The notes below the pieces were generated by a model that saw only the letters and a program-made list of their open reading frames with translations, did no database searches and was not told where the DNA came from. From positions 1 through 64,000 of the IMG/VR virus record IMGVR_UViG_3300025030_000061: a stretch of DNA of 64,000 bases. The stretch is one strand, 5' to 3'. The stretch is from a virus. Positions within the stretch are counted from its first letter, which is position 1. Every line of letters begins with the position of its first letter. This document shows positions 13,431 to 19,206 of this stretch, piece after piece. Both the position numbers and the translations under genes were made by a program.

Positions 13431-13811
13431 CTAAGCCCTGCTGCCAGAATGATCATCCTCGCCGCGTCTCCAGAGCGCGCCGGGCGCTACCCACCAGCAG
13501 CCGTGTTCCGGGTAGAGCACCGGGACCTCTCCGGGGTGGATCCCTGTGCCTTCGACGAGCTTGCCCTTCTGGCTCGGGCAGGTCCCCATGCAGTAGGCGT
13601 GCGAGGTGACGATGCCGTCTCCGAACTGCCCGCCGTGGACCTTCTCCCCGGATCGGAATCCGCCGGGCCACTCGTCGGAGGCTTTGCCGAATTCGAGTGA
13701 CGCGATTTGGTAGTGCCAGAAGTCTTCCCGCTCTTGGCGTTCGGTCCCGTCGCAAACCCGGTCGAGGTATGCGCGGTCCTCCATCTCCTTCATGGTGTGG
13801 GGAATGGTCAT
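13431..13811 (-). CDS. hypothetical protein
   Basis: A 126-aa protein from ATG 13811, which overlaps the TGA of the upstream gene (ATGA). It is rich in Gly/Trp (WPGGFRSGEKVHGGQFGDG; CWWVAPGALW). No family recognised. Its last codons coincide with an element B copy. Confidence 0.6.
   Translation of the reverse strand: MTIPHTMKEMEDRAYLDRVCDGTERQEREDFWHYQIASLEFGKASDEWPGGFRSGEKVHGGQFGDGIVTSHAYCMGTCPSQKGKLVEGTGIHPGEVPVLYPEHGCWWVAPGALWRRGEDDHSGSRA
13432..13453 (-). promoter_or_regulatory. element B
   Basis: ATCATTCTG-N7-GGCTTA, with the TAG of GGCTTAG serving as the stop of the 126-aa gene; 59-aa gene start ~60 nt downstream. Confidence 0.55.
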
Positions 13812-14008
13812 GCTCTGGCTCTCCGGTACGGTCCCAGGCGCTGCTCGCACTCGGTGATGATGGCCTTGAGGGTGCGCCGGTAGTCGCGCTCCCCGCGCAC
13901 GGAGGTCTTGCTGCGCCGCAAGCTGATGGTGATGGCGAAGCCCTTGCCGGGGTCCTGGATCGTTTCCAGCTGCACCTGGGCGGCTCTTTTCTTCTCGGTT
14001 ATTCTCAT
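13808..14008 (-). CDS. 66-aa basic protein
   Basis: Starts MRITEKKRAAQVQLETIQDP and ends RLGPYRRARA: a short beta strand region followed by a basic helix, as in small nucleic-acid-binding proteins. It directly follows the reverse transcriptase gene (13 nt gap) and may be co-transcribed with the DGR. Whether it helps the DGR is unknown. Confidence 0.6.
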   Translation of the reverse strand: MRITEKKRAAQVQLETIQDPGKGFAITISLRRSKTSVRGERDYRRTLKAIITECEQRLGPYRRARA

Positions 14009-14021
14009 GGTTTAGTCCTTG

Positions 14022-15191
14022 TCATGTTTCCACCCGTTTTCTGTAGATCTTGGTGAAACGGCCATCCACACAATGCCCCTTGCGAAGCGCGATCCGAGCC
14101 AGCCGCACCCTGGCATTATGGCTATGGTCCGATTGCCGTAGTAGCCCGAGATAACTGTTTGTGCTCCGCACCAAGTCTTCGCCGTTGTTGCTGGAGACTG
14201 CCGCTATCGCATTGTCAAAGGTCGTCCGTCTGAGCACCCGTCGCCATGGTTTTATGATCTGACCAACAAAATCCACGCCGCGCTCGATGGGCTGCAAGAT
14301 CGTCTTGCGAGGGTTGAGAGTCATGCTGAGGCGCTCTGATATGTAACTGCCGATCTCTGCTGCTGCCCGGTTCAACCATTCCGGCGACTCGTGCAGCAGC
14401 ACCATGTCGTCCACGTAGCGGATGTAATGGCGGGCACCGATGCGGTGTTTCACGCACTGGTCAAGAGGGTTCATATAGACGTTGGCAAAAAACTGGCTAC
14501 TCAGGTTGCCGATCGGCAGGCCAAGGTGAGACGGCTGGTTGAAAAGGCTCTTGTGCGGCGGGATCAGGGACAGCAGTTTCGGCGTCCCCTTGATGCGGAC
14601 GTTCTCTCGCGGGTCGTGAAATAGGATGGTGTCGGCCAGCCACATGACCCACTGCTCTCCGATCTTCGGGGCCAACAGGCACCGGAGGATATTCTTGTCG
14701 ATGCTGACGAAGAAATTGGCCACGTCTAGCTTCAGGTAATAGGCTGGCTTAGACCAGTTCTGGGTGATGCTTCTGATCTTGTGCTCCAAGCGCGTCGCTC
14801 CGTAAAGAGTGCCGCGGCCCGGTATGCAGGCGCAGCTGTCTACGATGAAGGAGCGGTGGAACCTGCCCGCTATCCGGTTGTAGAGCAGGTGATGTACGAT
14901 GCGGTCGCGGAAGTCTGCAGCCCAGACCTCGCGGGGTCTGGGCCTGGTGACGACGAAGCAGATGGATGTGCCGGGGCGGTATGTGCCATCTACCAGTTCC
15001 CGGTGGAGCGCCATGATATTGCGCTCCAGGTTGTTTTCGAACTTCAAAGCATTAATGGTATTGCGCTTGCGCCTACGACAGTCGTAGTAGGCGCAGAGCA
15101 ACTCGTCTACCGACAAATCGGCATCGTTGTAATCTGCGGACCGCCCTGACTCCGAAATTGTTGTTCTTATTGTTGTTGTTCTGGTTGCCAT
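14022..15191 (-). CDS. DGR reverse transcriptase
   Basis: A 389-aa RT of the diversity-generating retroelement class. Motif A is LDVANFF (155-161), LPIGNLSSQ (225-233) is the motif typical of this RT class, the catalytic YVDD is at 259-262, and a thumb follows. The N-terminal core LLCAYYDCRRRKR…FENNLERNI is also characteristic. Its job is error-prone cDNA synthesis from the template RNA, misreading adenines, to rewrite the variable repeat. ATG 15191 lies inside the template repeat, so residues 1-20 are template-encoded. A downstream TTG at residue 26 (LSVDELL) is an alternative start. Order target-avd-TR-RT matches the Bordetella phage BPP-1 DGR. Confidence 0.92.
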   Translation of the reverse strand: MATRTTTIRTTISESGRSADYNDADLSVDELLCAYYDCRRRKRNTINALKFENNLERNIMALHRELVDGTYRPGTSICFVVTRPRPREVWAADFRDRIVHHLLYNRIAGRFHRSFIVDSCACIPGRGTLYGATRLEHKIRSITQNWSKPAYYLKLDVANFFVSIDKNILRCLLAPKIGEQWVMWLADTILFHDPRENVRIKGTPKLLSLIPPHKSLFNQPSHLGLPIGNLSSQFFANVYMNPLDQCVKHRIGARHYIRYVDDMVLLHESPEWLNRAAAEIGSYISERLSMTLNPRKTILQPIERGVDFVGQIIKPWRRVLRRTTFDNAIAAVSSNNGEDLVRSTNSYLGLLRQSDHSHNARVRLARIALRKGHCVDGRFTKIYRKRVET

Positions 15192-15233
15192 TGTTGAAAT
15201 TCACGATCCAGGCGTTGTTGGAGTAGGAGGCGT
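15131..15233 (-). repeat. DGR template repeat (TR)
   Basis: 103 bp matching the variable repeat at 15791-15893 with a constant 660-bp offset. They differ at 13 positions, and at every one the template has A (read on the minus strand). The template is rich in AAC codons, the usual DGR device for wide amino-acid choice. Its 3' 30 bp are identical in both copies and end at the IMH-like GC-rich segment. It overlaps the 5' end of the RT gene. Confidence 0.93.
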
Positions 15234-15403
15234 AAAGTCATGCTGTTCACGTCGCATGACGGAAGGCTGAGCCGATCCGTCTTGAAACTGCGCCACGACC
15301 TTGCGGGACCGTGCCCGCTGGTTTCGCTGTCGGCACATTACCGTGGGGGGAATCCCCAGGGGCACGACCAGATTAATTCGCACGGACATAACCGCCGTAA
15401 CGG

Positions 15404-15757
15404 TTATGCAGCAGGCGACGATGCGAACTTGAGCCAACCGGAGGACTGTCTTCCGACCTGGTCGGTCAGCTCGATGGTTTGGGCAAATTGCCCCGTACTG
15501 ATTAGCCTCATGTCTTTGGACAGTCTGAGCATCAGCATCACCACCTGGAGGCGTTCCTGCAATGCCTCCAGGTGGTGCCGTTTGTCGCGGGCGCAATTCG
15601 CCCGGTAGACCAACACCACCAGCTCGACACACTCCTCGCGCACCTTGTTGCCGAGCGATTGCTTGTAGTCCCGCGGCATGTCCTTGGTGATGCGGGTAAC
15701 CACCTGCAAGAGCTCATAGGTGACGCGGTAAATCGGGAGAGTGGAAGCCAGTGCCAT
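15404..15757 (-). CDS. avd: DGR accessory variability determinant (Avd)
   Basis: A 117-aa basic four-helix-bundle protein (YRVTYELLQVVTRITKDMPR, then helices with RHHLEALQERLQVVMLMLRL), related to the 23S-rRNA intervening-sequence/S23 family that includes Avd. Known Avd proteins form a pentamer that binds the RT and template RNA and are needed for mutagenic homing. It lies between target and TR, 24 bp after the target stop. Confidence 0.88.
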   Translation of the reverse strand: MALASTLPIYRVTYELLQVVTRITKDMPRDYKQSLGNKVREECVELVVLVYRANCARDKRHHLEALQERLQVVMLMLRLSKDMRLISTGQFAQTIELTDQVGRQSSGWLKFASSPAA

Positions 15758-15780
15758 CTGTTACCTCAATTGATAAATGG

Positions 15781-16401
15781 TTAAATTTTTAATCTGCGGA
15801 CCGCCCTGACTCCGAAATTGAAGTTCTTATCGAGGTCGTACTGGTAGCCATTGAGGAAATTCACGAACCAGGCGTAGTAGGAGTAGGAGGCGTTTTCGGT
15901 GCTGGACCAGTACCAGTTCGGCTGGAAGGCCTCTACGGCGCCTTCACGGAACAGCTCGGGGGTGTTCTTGCGCTTGGGTCCGAGGTTCCGCCAGAGCATT
16001 GCCAGTTCGTCCCGGGACGGCAGGTGCCAGTCTTCGTGACCACCGATCCGGAGGGACCGGCAGAACTGTGCTGCCGGATGGTTCGCGCCGTTGATGCGGT
16101 CGCTGTTCGCCGCGCCGTCGTCATCGCTGTCGGTGCCGTCGAAGGCGTTGAGGCTCTTCTTTTTGTATTGGATGTCCTGCTTCTCGCCTTCTACCTTCGG
16201 CGCCACCACCAGTGCGTAGCGCTCGCCGTCGATGGTCATCTCCCCGGCGAAAAACCCGCCACCGAGAGGGGTGCCAAGGGCCGCAAGGGGCTCGGCAAGG
16301 TAGAGCTTGGTTCCAATCGGCAGGGTTACGTTGGGCTCCGTCTCAATGGTGTTCTGCCACCCCGGTTGGTTGTTGTTCACTACAGTTGCGATCTGCTTCA
16401 T
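15781..16401 (-). CDS. DGR target protein, C-type-lectin-like (DUF1566)
   Basis: A 206-aa protein. Residues ~80-206 form a DUF1566/FGE-like C-type lectin fold (WHLPSRDELAMLW; WYWSSTENAS; GVRAVRR). The variable repeat covers the last ~35 codons. Residues diversified relative to the template: 175, 176, 179, 183, 186, 188-191 and 194, nearly all N changed to Y, L, D or F. Residues 1-80 form a separate N-terminal region, presumably for attachment. It is not next to the tail genes, so it could be a virion tip protein or a cell-surface binder; no signal peptide is present. ATG overlaps the stop of a 42-aa gene. Confidence 0.9.
   Translation of the reverse strand: MKQIATVVNNNQPGWQNTIETEPNVTLPIGTKLYLAEPLAALGTPLGGGFFAGEMTIDGERYALVVAPKVEGEKQDIQYKKKSLNAFDGTDSDDDGAANSDRINGANHPAAQFCRSLRIGGHEDWHLPSRDELAMLWRNLGPKRKNTPELFREGAVEAFQPNWYWSSTENASYSYYAWFVNFLNGYQYDLDKNFNFGVRAVRRLKI
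15791..15893 (-). repeat. DGR variable repeat (VR)
   Basis: Partner of the template repeat at 15131-15233: 90 of 103 bp identical, with all 13 differences at template adenines and affecting ten codons. It ends 10 bp before the end of the target gene. Confidence 0.93.
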
Positions 16402-16526
16402 AGTTCCCTCCTGGTCTTAAAGTATTTGCTGCTTGTCGTACCAAGCCGCTGCTTCAGAATGATGTAGGCGGCCTTCCTCTTGGCGTCTCGGTAAAAAGTG
16501 GGGTGGCTTTCCTTCCCCTGGTGCAT
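16398..16526 (-). CDS. 42-aa basic protein coupled to the DGR target
   Basis: Reads MHQGKESHPTFYRDAKRKAA… to …TRREL, strongly basic. AGGAGGTGGAAC gives an excellent ribosome-binding site for ATG 16526, and its TGA overlaps the target ATG (ATGA). It may act simply as a translation-coupling leader or as an RNA-binding helper for the DGR; no homologue recognised. Confidence 0.55.
   Translation of the reverse strand: MHQGKESHPTFYRDAKRKAAYIILKQRLGTTSSKYFKTRREL
16442..16463 (-). promoter_or_regulatory. element B
   Basis: ATCATTCTG-N7-GGCTTG inside the 42-aa gene, ~55-60 nt upstream of the DGR target start, the usual spacing. Confidence 0.5.
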
Positions 16527-16610: not shown

Positions 16611-16624
16611 TGATATACGCTACG
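16611..16624 (-). promoter_or_regulatory. element A operator/promoter
   Basis: CGTAGCGTATATCA, overlapping the terminase stop codon. With the adjacent copy it forms a direct repeat in front of the DGR, suggesting cooperative control. Confidence 0.6.
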
Positions 16625-18632
16625 GCTCGCCCTGGCAGGTGCCCCATCCTTTCTTGTCCGCCACTCCCTGGGCGGTTTCGCCGGCCAGCACGCGGACCGT
16701 GACTCCGCAGACCTCGCAGCGGTGGTGCTGCGGGTTGGCCTGCTGCTGCCAGTCGTGTTCGCCGGTCTTGAGGAGCTTCTTGGCCTCCTCGCTGAAATCC
16801 TGGAACGCCTTGACGTGGCCGTCGGGTTTGACGCGGGAGAGCGCCAGCTCGCAGTAGAGGTCGGCGTGCAGGAAGTGGGGGTCGAGCCCGATGTTCTCGA
16901 AGACCATCTTGTACTTGCCCTGCTTCTCGTCGATCACGACCTTGCGGCGCGCCACCTTCTGGAGGTGTACCCAGAACCATGCCTTGCAGATTCGGAGCGT
17001 CACCGGGCGGCCGACGTTGTCCTGGACGGTTGCCTCCAGGGCCAGCTCGTTTGGCTGCTCCTTGAGGCGGTGGACGTACTTCATAAGGTTCCACTCGATG
17101 CCGTGGTACCGGCTGATTTTGCAGGTGTACTTGTTCTTCGTCTCCTCGCTGCTTTTCCGCTCGCTGGCATTCTCCTTCGGTCGGTCCCCCCAGACGCAGA
17201 TATCGTCGTCTCCCTTCTTGTCGTAGGAGTAGTCTGCGAGCCAGACCCGGCCTTTCCAGCGCTTGGCGAAGCGTCGAGCCTCGTTGATGTTCGGCATGGA
17301 GTCCACGACGCAGACGTTGATGTCGTACTGCTCCATCAGCTCGTCGCAGCGCTTCCATGGGTCGTCGTCGTAGATCGCCTCGATGTGAGCGAGCCGGCTC
17401 TTGCTGGTGCCGATGATCGGGTCTTTCGGTCCCCAATACCGGATGGTCACGATATTGAAGCCTCCCATCTGGTCGACTCCCATGGCGAAGTTCTGCCCCT
17501 TGGTGAGCCAGCGGAGGTCCTGGTTGACCGTGGCGCCCAGGATGGTGTCGTTGACGATCTGGCTCTCCGGGGCCAGGTAGGCGATGCCGAGCTTGGAGTT
17601 GAAGAACTCCTGCAGGTCGCTGGCCTCCTGGTACGCCTTGAGCATCCTCTCCGCGTTCTGCCGGCAAGAGAGCGTCTGCGGGATGTGGTAGCCGATCACC
17701 TTGCTGTCGGGGTTGTGCGGGATCCAGAGCCCTTCCCTCGGGTTGATGATCGGCTCCTTGCAGACCGGGCAGATGTAGAAGGTGTCGGGCAAGTGGCGCA
17801 GGCTCGGGGTCATGCCCTGGGATTTCTCCCCGATGCAGTTGGGGAATACATCTGCCAGCACGACGCCGTCCTTGCCGTTGCATTTGCACTTGCTGTGGAA
17901 GCGGTGCTGGTTGCTCAGTTTGTAGTGCTTGTCGATGTTGGCGTCGGGGTAGCCGGCCGTGCTGAATTTGAAGTCAATCGGGTACGGGCTGTGGCTGATC
18001 CTCTCCATGGCGCGCTCGATGTCGCCGTCGAGCATCCGGCGCACCTCGTCGAAGAGGACGCCGAGCATCGGGATGGACTCAGTGGAGGTCTTGCCCTGCA
18101 TGTACGAGAAAAATATCTGTGACGGTCCCAGGGAGCGGACGCGCTTCTGGTCGGTCTTTCGCTTTTCCCCGTCGTCGGCCGTGGGATCCTCCCCCCAGAG
18201 CGGCTTGATCTCCGGGATGGATCGCACCGTCGGCTTGAAGCGGACGTCCGAGAAGATCATGGCCATGGCCTGGTCTGGGAGGAAGTAGCCGAAGTACTTC
18301 CCCCAGAACCGCATGGCGAGCCATACGAGCAGCAGGAAGCCGCCGATGGTCTTGCCTACCTGGGCGCCGCACATCCAGACCGCGGACAGTCCGTCCTCGT
18401 TGCGGTCGCCGGTCAGCTGAAACGCCTTGTATGGCTCCAGTAAATACTCGTGGCCTTCCCAGGTGAACGGCTCGTTGTCGACTCGTAGCGTCGGGCGGAT
18501 CATCTCCACGAACGTGTGGAGGTTGTCGGGCGCGTTCTTGCTGATCAGCGGCCTGGTGGCTGCGGTCATGATGTGGTCGGGGATAGCTACGCCGCGCTGT
18601 TTTAGCAGCTCCATTGCCTGCCTACGCTGCAT
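16620..18632 (-). CDS. terL: terminase large subunit (GpA-type)
   Basis: A 670-aa packaging ATPase/nuclease. WMCGAQVGKT (~87-95) is the Walker A and GVLFDEV (~191-197) the Walker B. The nuclease half contains GVDQMGGF and VVDSMPN acidic motifs. Cysteine pairs (CKCNGKDGV, CPVC, CEVCG) resemble the zinc sites of lambda GpA relatives. ATG 18632 chosen, 13 nt after the small-subunit stop and preceded by GGAAGGA; the open frame extends upstream into that gene. Terminase genes are usually next to portal, but here they lie in the early/DGR arm. Confidence 0.9.
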   Translation of the reverse strand: MQRRQAMELLKQRGVAIPDHIMTAATRPLISKNAPDNLHTFVEMIRPTLRVDNEPFTWEGHEYLLEPYKAFQLTGDRNEDGLSAVWMCGAQVGKTIGGFLLLVWLAMRFWGKYFGYFLPDQAMAMIFSDVRFKPTVRSIPEIKPLWGEDPTADDGEKRKTDQKRVRSLGPSQIFFSYMQGKTSTESIPMLGVLFDEVRRMLDGDIERAMERISHSPYPIDFKFSTAGYPDANIDKHYKLSNQHRFHSKCKCNGKDGVVLADVFPNCIGEKSQGMTPSLRHLPDTFYICPVCKEPIINPREGLWIPHNPDSKVIGYHIPQTLSCRQNAERMLKAYQEASDLQEFFNSKLGIAYLAPESQIVNDTILGATVNQDLRWLTKGQNFAMGVDQMGGFNIVTIRYWGPKDPIIGTSKSRLAHIEAIYDDDPWKRCDELMEQYDINVCVVDSMPNINEARRFAKRWKGRVWLADYSYDKKGDDDICVWGDRPKENASERKSSEETKNKYTCKISRYHGIEWNLMKYVHRLKEQPNELALEATVQDNVGRPVTLRICKAWFWVHLQKVARRKVVIDEKQGKYKMVFENIGLDPHFLHADLYCELALSRVKPDGHVKAFQDFSEEAKKLLKTGEHDWQQQANPQHHRCEVCGVTVRVLAGETAQGVADKKGWGTCQGEP

Positions 18633-18645
18633 TTCCTTCCGGCGT

Positions 18646-19206
18646 TCAAGCTCCTGCAGTATCTGGGTCTTCGAGTAGTGCAAGGAGTTCCTCGGTGCTC
18701 TTGTCTTTGAGATCGTTGTCGATTTTGATACTTCTGCCCCAGCGCTCTTTAAACCGGCGCTCCAGGTACCAGGCGACCGCCTGCCATGATTCTTTACCGT
18801 GGGCGCGTATCTGGGCGATGCCCTGAACCTCCGACTCGGCAAGCGCCCTTTTTATGGCGTCCGAAAATTTGACGTATTCTTCACCTTCCCCGCGGGCACC
18901 CAGGCGCATCCATGCGTAGAGAGTATCCTTGCTTATGCCACCGTAAGCTGCGGCCGTCTCCATGAAGGACCCGCCCCTGATGGCGGAGCATATGCTATCC
19001 TGGATCTGCTGCGTTATCTTTGGCGGCCGGCCGCGTCCCTTCTTGTCGTCGTCCTTCTGCTTCTCGGCGAGGACCTTCTTGTCCGGCGCCCTCGGGGCTC
19101 GCTTCCGCTTCGGCTTGGCTTTCGGCTTGGCAGCAGGCTTCTTCGGTGCGGGCTTCTCCGCGGCCGGGGCGGCGCTCTGCTTCTTCGGTGCCTTCGGTTT
19201 GGTCAT
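18646..19206 (-). CDS. terS: terminase small subunit-like protein
   Basis: A 186-aa protein. Residues 1-60 are a Lys/Pro/Ala-rich low-complexity tail. Residues ~65-120 form an HTH that reads KKGRGRPPKITQQIQDSICS, then GGISKDTLYAWMRLG. The C-terminal half is helical. HTH plus position directly before TerL indicates the DNA-recognition subunit. Start at ATG 19206 (AGAGGACA upstream). Confidence 0.8.
   Translation of the reverse strand: MTKPKAPKKQSAAPAAEKPAPKKPAAKPKAKPKRKRAPRAPDKKVLAEKQKDDDKKGRGRPPKITQQIQDSICSAIRGGSFMETAAAYGGISKDTLYAWMRLGARGEGEEYVKFSDAIKRALAESEVQGIAQIRAHGKESWQAVAWYLERRFKERWGRSIKIDNDLKDKSTEELLALLEDPDTAGA

Follow-up and report, generated by a model that had tools for sequence, protein, structure and literature searches.

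A diversity-generating retroelement with an RT-15 RNA and a lectin-fold target beside the terminase genes of a tailed phage

The window, by which we mean the whole 64,000-nucleotide stretch of DNA analysed, belongs to a 95,051-bp record of a tailed phage (~95 kb) with a contractile tail. It carries the genes and repeats of a diversity-generating retroelement (DGR), which lie on the minus strand between the terminase genes and a conserved small gene:

18646..19206, minus strand: terminase small subunit (phrog_4102, E 9e-31)
16620..18683, minus strand: terminase large subunit, directly upstream of the cassette and one border of the slot discussed below (phrog_675, E 2e-62)
16398..16526, minus strand: 42-aa ORF (gene call) with a good ribosome-binding site; its stop overlaps the target start
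15781..16401, minus strand: target gene, 206 aa, with a C-terminal Lcl_C (DUF1566) domain (PF07603, E 6e-16; phrog_4245, E 5e-31)
15791..15893, minus strand: variable repeat (VR), about the last 34 target codons (residues 170-204 of 206), with 13 mismatches, all at template A
15404..15757, minus strand: avd, 117 aa (PF22296 bAvd, E 1e-16; phrog_3206 'Avd protein of DGR', E 1e-31)
15231..15420, minus strand: RT-15 RNA (Rfam RF03018), full length (142.7 bits, E 5e-35)
15131..15233, minus strand: template repeat (TR), which pairs with VR and has A-rich, AAC/AAT codons in the target frame
14022..15191, minus strand: DGR reverse transcriptase (RT) with YVDD and IGNLSSQ motifs (RVT_1, E 2e-14; phrog_1423, E 3e-109)
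13808..14008, minus strand: conserved 66-aa gene, the opposite slot border in related phages (tblastn in L091-L094, L098, L099, L117)

The reading frames of avd and RT are uninterrupted, Avd identity reaches 91% in relatives, and the window RT is nested among DGR RTs in a tree. The original prediction, that an Avd-like protein and a YVDD/IGNLSSQ RT complete the cassette in the order of BPP-1, is borne out by intact genes with domain and PHROG matches, and the frameshifted RT it had named as a sign against itself did not occur. The sole ATG of the RT ORF (15191) lies inside TR, TTG codons are present at 15116 and 15101, and homology to other RTs begins near residue 26 (15116), so that the conserved part is 14022-15116 and the RT start codon is uncertain. 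The stop of the 42-aa ORF over the target start may permit translational coupling, and a tblastn search returned no convincing relative of this ORF. Inside avd, at 15539-15577, is a perfect 14-bp inverted repeat with a loop of 11, which has versions of 10-11 bp at the matching place in L005, L007, L009, L011 and L012; it sits in a conserved coding stretch, and we do not claim it as a DGR signal.

An independent repeat search recovered TR and VR at an offset of 660, and base-by-base comparison aligned 103/103 positions with no gaps. Every one of the 13 mismatches is a template A on the coding strand (TR to VR, nine A>T, two A>G and two A>C), and the hypergeometric chance that 13 random sites would all land on the 36 As among 103 positions is 2e-7. 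The mismatches alter ten target residues: N175Y, N176Y, I179F, N183L, N186Y, N188Y, N189D, N190L, N191D and N194F. The constant 660-bp offset, the 13 adenine-only differences and the ten altered codons of the 206-aa DUF1566 target had each been predicted and were confirmed here. When the whole 95,051-bp record was searched for VRs, exactly one was present, with no second copy. Terminal repeats were also looked for in this record, and none was found.

The Lcl_C domain spans target residues 108-202. In an AlphaFold model built on 54 homologues, the C-terminal domain is mostly above pLDDT 90 and VR falls on its last strands; residues 1-40 are poorly modelled, with low confidence. Among solved structures, Foldseek matches the target best to the C-terminal domain of Legionella Lcl (8q4e, E 1e-5), and tail-fibre, S74-peptidase and collagen-repeat proteins are among its matches in predicted viral proteins. 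Model and matches support a C-type-lectin/Lcl fold for the target. Residues 1-40 contain no recognisable virion-attachment domain, and the target has no obvious signal peptide. A target homologue in Pseudomonas phage PMBT3 (L090:7902-8555) lies near lysis genes; this phage is absent from the RT-search rows shown and may have no DGR RT.

Structural genes were placed by PHROG searches, and gene calls outside the cassette came from a home-made scorer. Portal, head, sheath, baseplate and fibre genes occupy about 48-93 kb on the minus strand, with the tail genes at 48-68 kb, and the plus strand carries integrase, methyltransferase and SbcCD genes at 25-45 kb. The terminase genes end 0.1 kb upstream of the cassette, which shares its strand with the structural module. 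The target, at 16 kb, is outside the tail locus as predicted, but its assignment to the early arm fails, because the cassette directly follows the terminase genes on the structural-gene strand. That label would be right for clade B, a more distant group in which an integrase lies within 5.5 kb in 20/21 records and the terminase is >10 kb away in 10/10. The window falls within a supported set of eight clade-A rows in the RT tree (95/88), and in four clade-A records with a GpA terminase match the terminase is 0.9-3.7 kb downstream of RT on the same strand.

Clade-A cassettes are found in very different phages. The window RT is 84% identical to that of L007, and the flanks are unrelated; near-identical cassettes occur in a Mu-like backbone (L009), in backbones with a GpA-type terminase (L013, L019, L021) and in the phrog_675-terminase backbone of the window phage. 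Their presence in unrelated backbones indicates that the cassette moves between phages as a unit. Two contigs of the collection have further features of their own. L007, a phage contig with a Mu gp16-like gene, has two type II hammerhead ribozymes (Rfam RF02276; L007:1579-1659 and 2392-2457) upstream of its DGR targets, and L003 has a 2023-aa ORF between portal and head genes (L003:13880-19951) whose matches are to phosphoheptose isomerase and to unknown phage families.

For the window phage itself, relatives were collected through the terminase (57-80% identity), and none of these has the window DGR. The slot is the interval between the terminase and the conserved 66-aa gene, and in six relatives (L091-L094, L099 and L117) it holds another lectin, of FGE-like type; in L091-L094 and L099 this is a 324-aa FGE-sulfatase-like protein (truncated in L091), which has a relative in TaqVP (5vf4, E 1e-67), the variable protein of a DGR. 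Its last residues vary among contigs. The corresponding slot VRs (L092:4304-4416, L093:6706-6815, L094:14863-14975, L099:13790-13899) match the TR of a DGR in the relative G009, with differences almost only at A, and five ambiguous bases in L092 fall in the slot VR and may reflect a mixed population. G009 (90.5 kb) has a tail-side DGR in the order tail-fibre-like protein, FGE target, Avd, TR, RT. Its own slot VR has 11 A and 0 other mismatches to the TR of this DGR, which is ~50 kb away, and the same TR has 13-18 A and 0-1 other mismatches to the slot VRs of L092-L094. The more distant G012/L117 (terminase 55%) is organised in the same way, with 10 mismatches at A and 3 elsewhere. The DGR acting in trans has as its main target an adhesin of the tail locus, a homologue of the slot protein. 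Judged from these repeats, the tail-locus DGR appears to diversify the slot lectin in trans in two of the six relatives, G009 and G012. Among five records of 80-95 kb, three have both an RT and a slot target and two have neither. The window phage has one RT and no FGE-like protein. We infer that the slot carries a variable adhesin and that the Lcl_C cassette here replaces the FGE protein. As a hint to the host of this phage group, L112, a contig with a 79% identical terminase, comes from a Geobacteraceae metagenome bin, although binning errors are possible.

We consider it probable that the window holds a complete DGR of the RT-15 lineage whose Lcl_C target is a virion receptor-binding adhesin in the terminase-side slot, that the cassette arrived as a unit, and that the slot lectin of relatives is diversified in trans. 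By analogy with BPP-1, RT-Avd would copy the RT-15/TR transcript and misincorporate at its adenines, and VR would then be replaced by the cDNA, giving new variants of the exposed Lcl_C (C-type-lectin) face. The target would be a receptor-binding (adhesin) virion protein in an accessory slot beside the terminase, away from the tail genes; the cassette would have entered the phage as a unit, and relatives would fill the slot with a different lectin diversified by a tail-locus DGR. A receptor-binding role is favoured by the slot comparison, since the same place holds an FGE-type lectin that is apparently diversified in trans by a tail-locus DGR in two relatives. FGE-type proteins are a different family, so the argument for shared function is one of analogy. 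The case for display on the virion is weakened by the lack of a recognisable attachment domain together with the poorly modelled residues 1-40, and by the distance of ~35 kb between target and tail genes; for the distant clade, the early/integrase-arm position makes a virion role less obvious.

These last points would also suit a real DGR whose lectin acts in or on the infected host cell, in anti-defence, superinfection exclusion or another effect at the host surface. The location of clade B cassettes close to an integrase and far from the terminase fits such a role, as does the DGR of Burkholderia phage Magia, which lies among RecT, AAA ATPase and integrase genes, and so do the N-terminus and the non-tail location of the window target. 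We nonetheless judge it unlikely: the closest clade, including the window, adjoins the terminase, the slot lectin of sister phages shares a TR with a tail-locus lectin, related folds are found in phage tail-fibre proteins, and the target has no obvious signal peptide that would serve surface display.

Whether the lectin is displayed or not, comparison across the family gives evidence of a working DGR. RT relatives were gathered from viral contigs, and a script tolerant of A mismatches looked for TR/VR pairs in them. Over 85 related loci, 2147/2183 TR/VR mismatches fall on a template A and the other 36 do not, counts that come from related and hence non-independent loci and from a script that favours A mismatches in setting repeat ends. 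Variation at non-adenine positions in relatives, which the original prediction had listed as a second sign against itself, did not occur beyond these 36. AAC codons are changed in 891/1021 cases in the family pairs, and core As are altered about 50% of the time, with As ≤20 nt from the TR 3′ end seldom altered. TR is untranslated in the target frame, and yet when relatives are compared its substitutions are most frequent at what would be third codon positions in that frame (0.49-0.53 in clade A), as expected of a TR that is copied time after time into the target and comes under selection there. From its sequence, the locus has a target with a C-terminal VR, avd, RT-15, TR and RT in an operon-like order, with TR evolving as though read in the target frame, and the cassette is apparently a complete, working DGR. 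The prediction of a complete DGR diversifying a lectin-like protein thus holds, on the adenine-directed mismatches here and in 85 relatives, the third-position bias and the lectin/Lcl fold.

A decayed or dormant passenger that no longer diversifies its target would account for the single VR of the window phage, where most relatives have two or more, and for the uncertain RT start codon. This seems quite improbable, however, with RT, avd, RT-15 RNA, TR and VR all intact and zero non-A mismatches between TR and VR, since such changes would accumulate without turnover. That an assembly error fused a DGR contig into an unrelated phage contig is barely credible, for although the relatives of the phage lack the cassette, both of its borders fall exactly at the slot that holds another DGR target in those relatives, GC is uniform, and the genes abut without debris.

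The family pairs also reveal a context rule. In the TR core, an A followed by G is altered in 5/479 cases (1%), against 962/1518 before A, 607/1342 before C and 203/411 before T (45-63%, about 54%), and other As within 8 nt of the AG sites in the same VRs are altered in 1390/2443. At residue 195, AAG templates have the first A altered in 5/13 and the second in 0/13, and the A of GAG templates is altered in 0/49; position 2 is altered in AAT (6/11) and AAC (4/7). This argues for sequence context rather than selection on the residue as the source of AG sparing. Selection may still play a part, for at residue 192 AAG is seldom altered even at its first A (3/84). In 21 pairs of other lineages the AG rate is 5/14, a small sample. 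Error profiles in BPP-1 are reported to be dominated by the 3′ base (PMC12875486, whose text gives no total NAG rate).

The RT-15 RNA is the second feature that marks the lineage. Its 192 nt end at the 5′ edge of TR, and its covariance-model score compares with a gathering score of 82. It is present, and ends at this edge, in 58/58 family records tested (the window, 48 others and 9 more), and it is present in 0/14 control genomes. Rfam lists it simply as an sRNA gene; we propose that it leads the template RNA on the 5′ side. The window record has no match to RF03022, which in BPP-1 lies between TR and brt. In the window, TR ends 14 nt before conserved RT residue 26. It ends ≤33 nt before this residue in 75/77 loci and runs past it in 2/77, where the alignment start may be off. 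Because TR abuts or overlaps the RT ORF, the lineage has no room outside the RT-coding region for a 3′ spacer of the BPP-1 type, which recruits bRT-Avd and primes cDNA (PMC12875486). A TR that overlaps the end of the RT ORF is already described as DiGReF structural group 3 (PMC3521204), to which our sequences would add the constant pairing of TR with RT-15.

At the start of the RT-coding region, ~36 nt past TR, window 15068-15095 can form a hairpin (TGCGCCTAC...GTAGGCGCA). Several relatives of clade A keep it as a stem of 7-9 bp, which in L007 and L008 has a paired change, and it is a candidate site for a priming structure. Downstream of the window VR there is no stem of at least 6 bp within 70 nt of its end, and such hairpins are rare in the family. 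A consensus fold of RT-15, TR and the RT start pairs leader UCUGGU with TR ACCAGA, but both are near-invariant and hence without covariation support. Nor do we claim that RT coding extends through or upstream of TR, where codon-phase substitution looks non-coding and the window TR contains a stop. In clade B, 120-270 nt before RT residue 26, the RT frame is open in 49/63 loci and the other frames in 0/63.

These features make plausible, if tentatively, a DGR variant in which a 5′ RT-15 recruits RT-Avd with no 3′ spacer, priming takes place inside the RT-coding region or from another primer, TR doubles as the translation-start region of RT, and A before G is left unmutated. The window cassette is in itself an ordinary complete DGR, an added member of a large phage DGR lineage, and the parts worth following are the RNA layout of the lineage, the AG rule and the shared terminase slot. 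The lineage makes RT priming and recruitment testable where there is no 3′ spacer and a conserved 5′ RT-15 is always present. For the design of templates, AG sparing would be a guide to protecting chosen residues from mutation. What DGR targets do outside the tail locus is a second testable question, for which this phage group offers a concrete system in its terminase slot, a place that serves two unrelated DGR lineages.

The cassette resembles that of BPP-1 (mtd-avd-TR-brt) in its order of target, avd, TR and RT, its A-specific TR/VR differences and its C-terminal lectin-fold VR, and Avd and RT are homologous (RT 30.5% identity). In BPP-1, however, a 144-nt gap between TR and brt is filled by the Phage_DGR RNA RF03022 and there is no RT-15 match, whereas TR in the window abuts or overlaps RT and has RT-15 on its 5′ side. 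The window also differs in having no hairpin just 3′ of VR and a target outside the tail locus. DiGReF structural group 3 is not tied to RT-15 RNA in the accessible part of its survey (PMC3521204). The Thermus aquaticus TaqVP DGR (5vf4, PMC6328139) and the tail-locus DGRs of G009 and G012 likewise combine a DGR with a lectin fold, and G009 and G012 share the phage lineage of the window, but these DGRs have an FGE-type target, a different RT lineage (about 30% identity) and a TR-RT gap; the two loci of this type that were scanned (L119, L184) have no RT-15 RNA. Burkholderia phage Magia (MT701587; PMC7883833) belongs to the same lineage, with an RT of 61% identity, RT-15 before TR, a TR that overlaps the annotated RT CDS and short lectin-fold targets, although its DGR is in the early/integrase arm and has several targets. 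The IMG/VR records L005, L013, L017 and L021 share the layout and targets, with RTs of 77-84% identity and a terminase at 0.9-3.7 kb on the same strand, and differ from the window in their unrelated backbones, in having mostly two tandem targets and in a cassette that lies upstream of the terminase.
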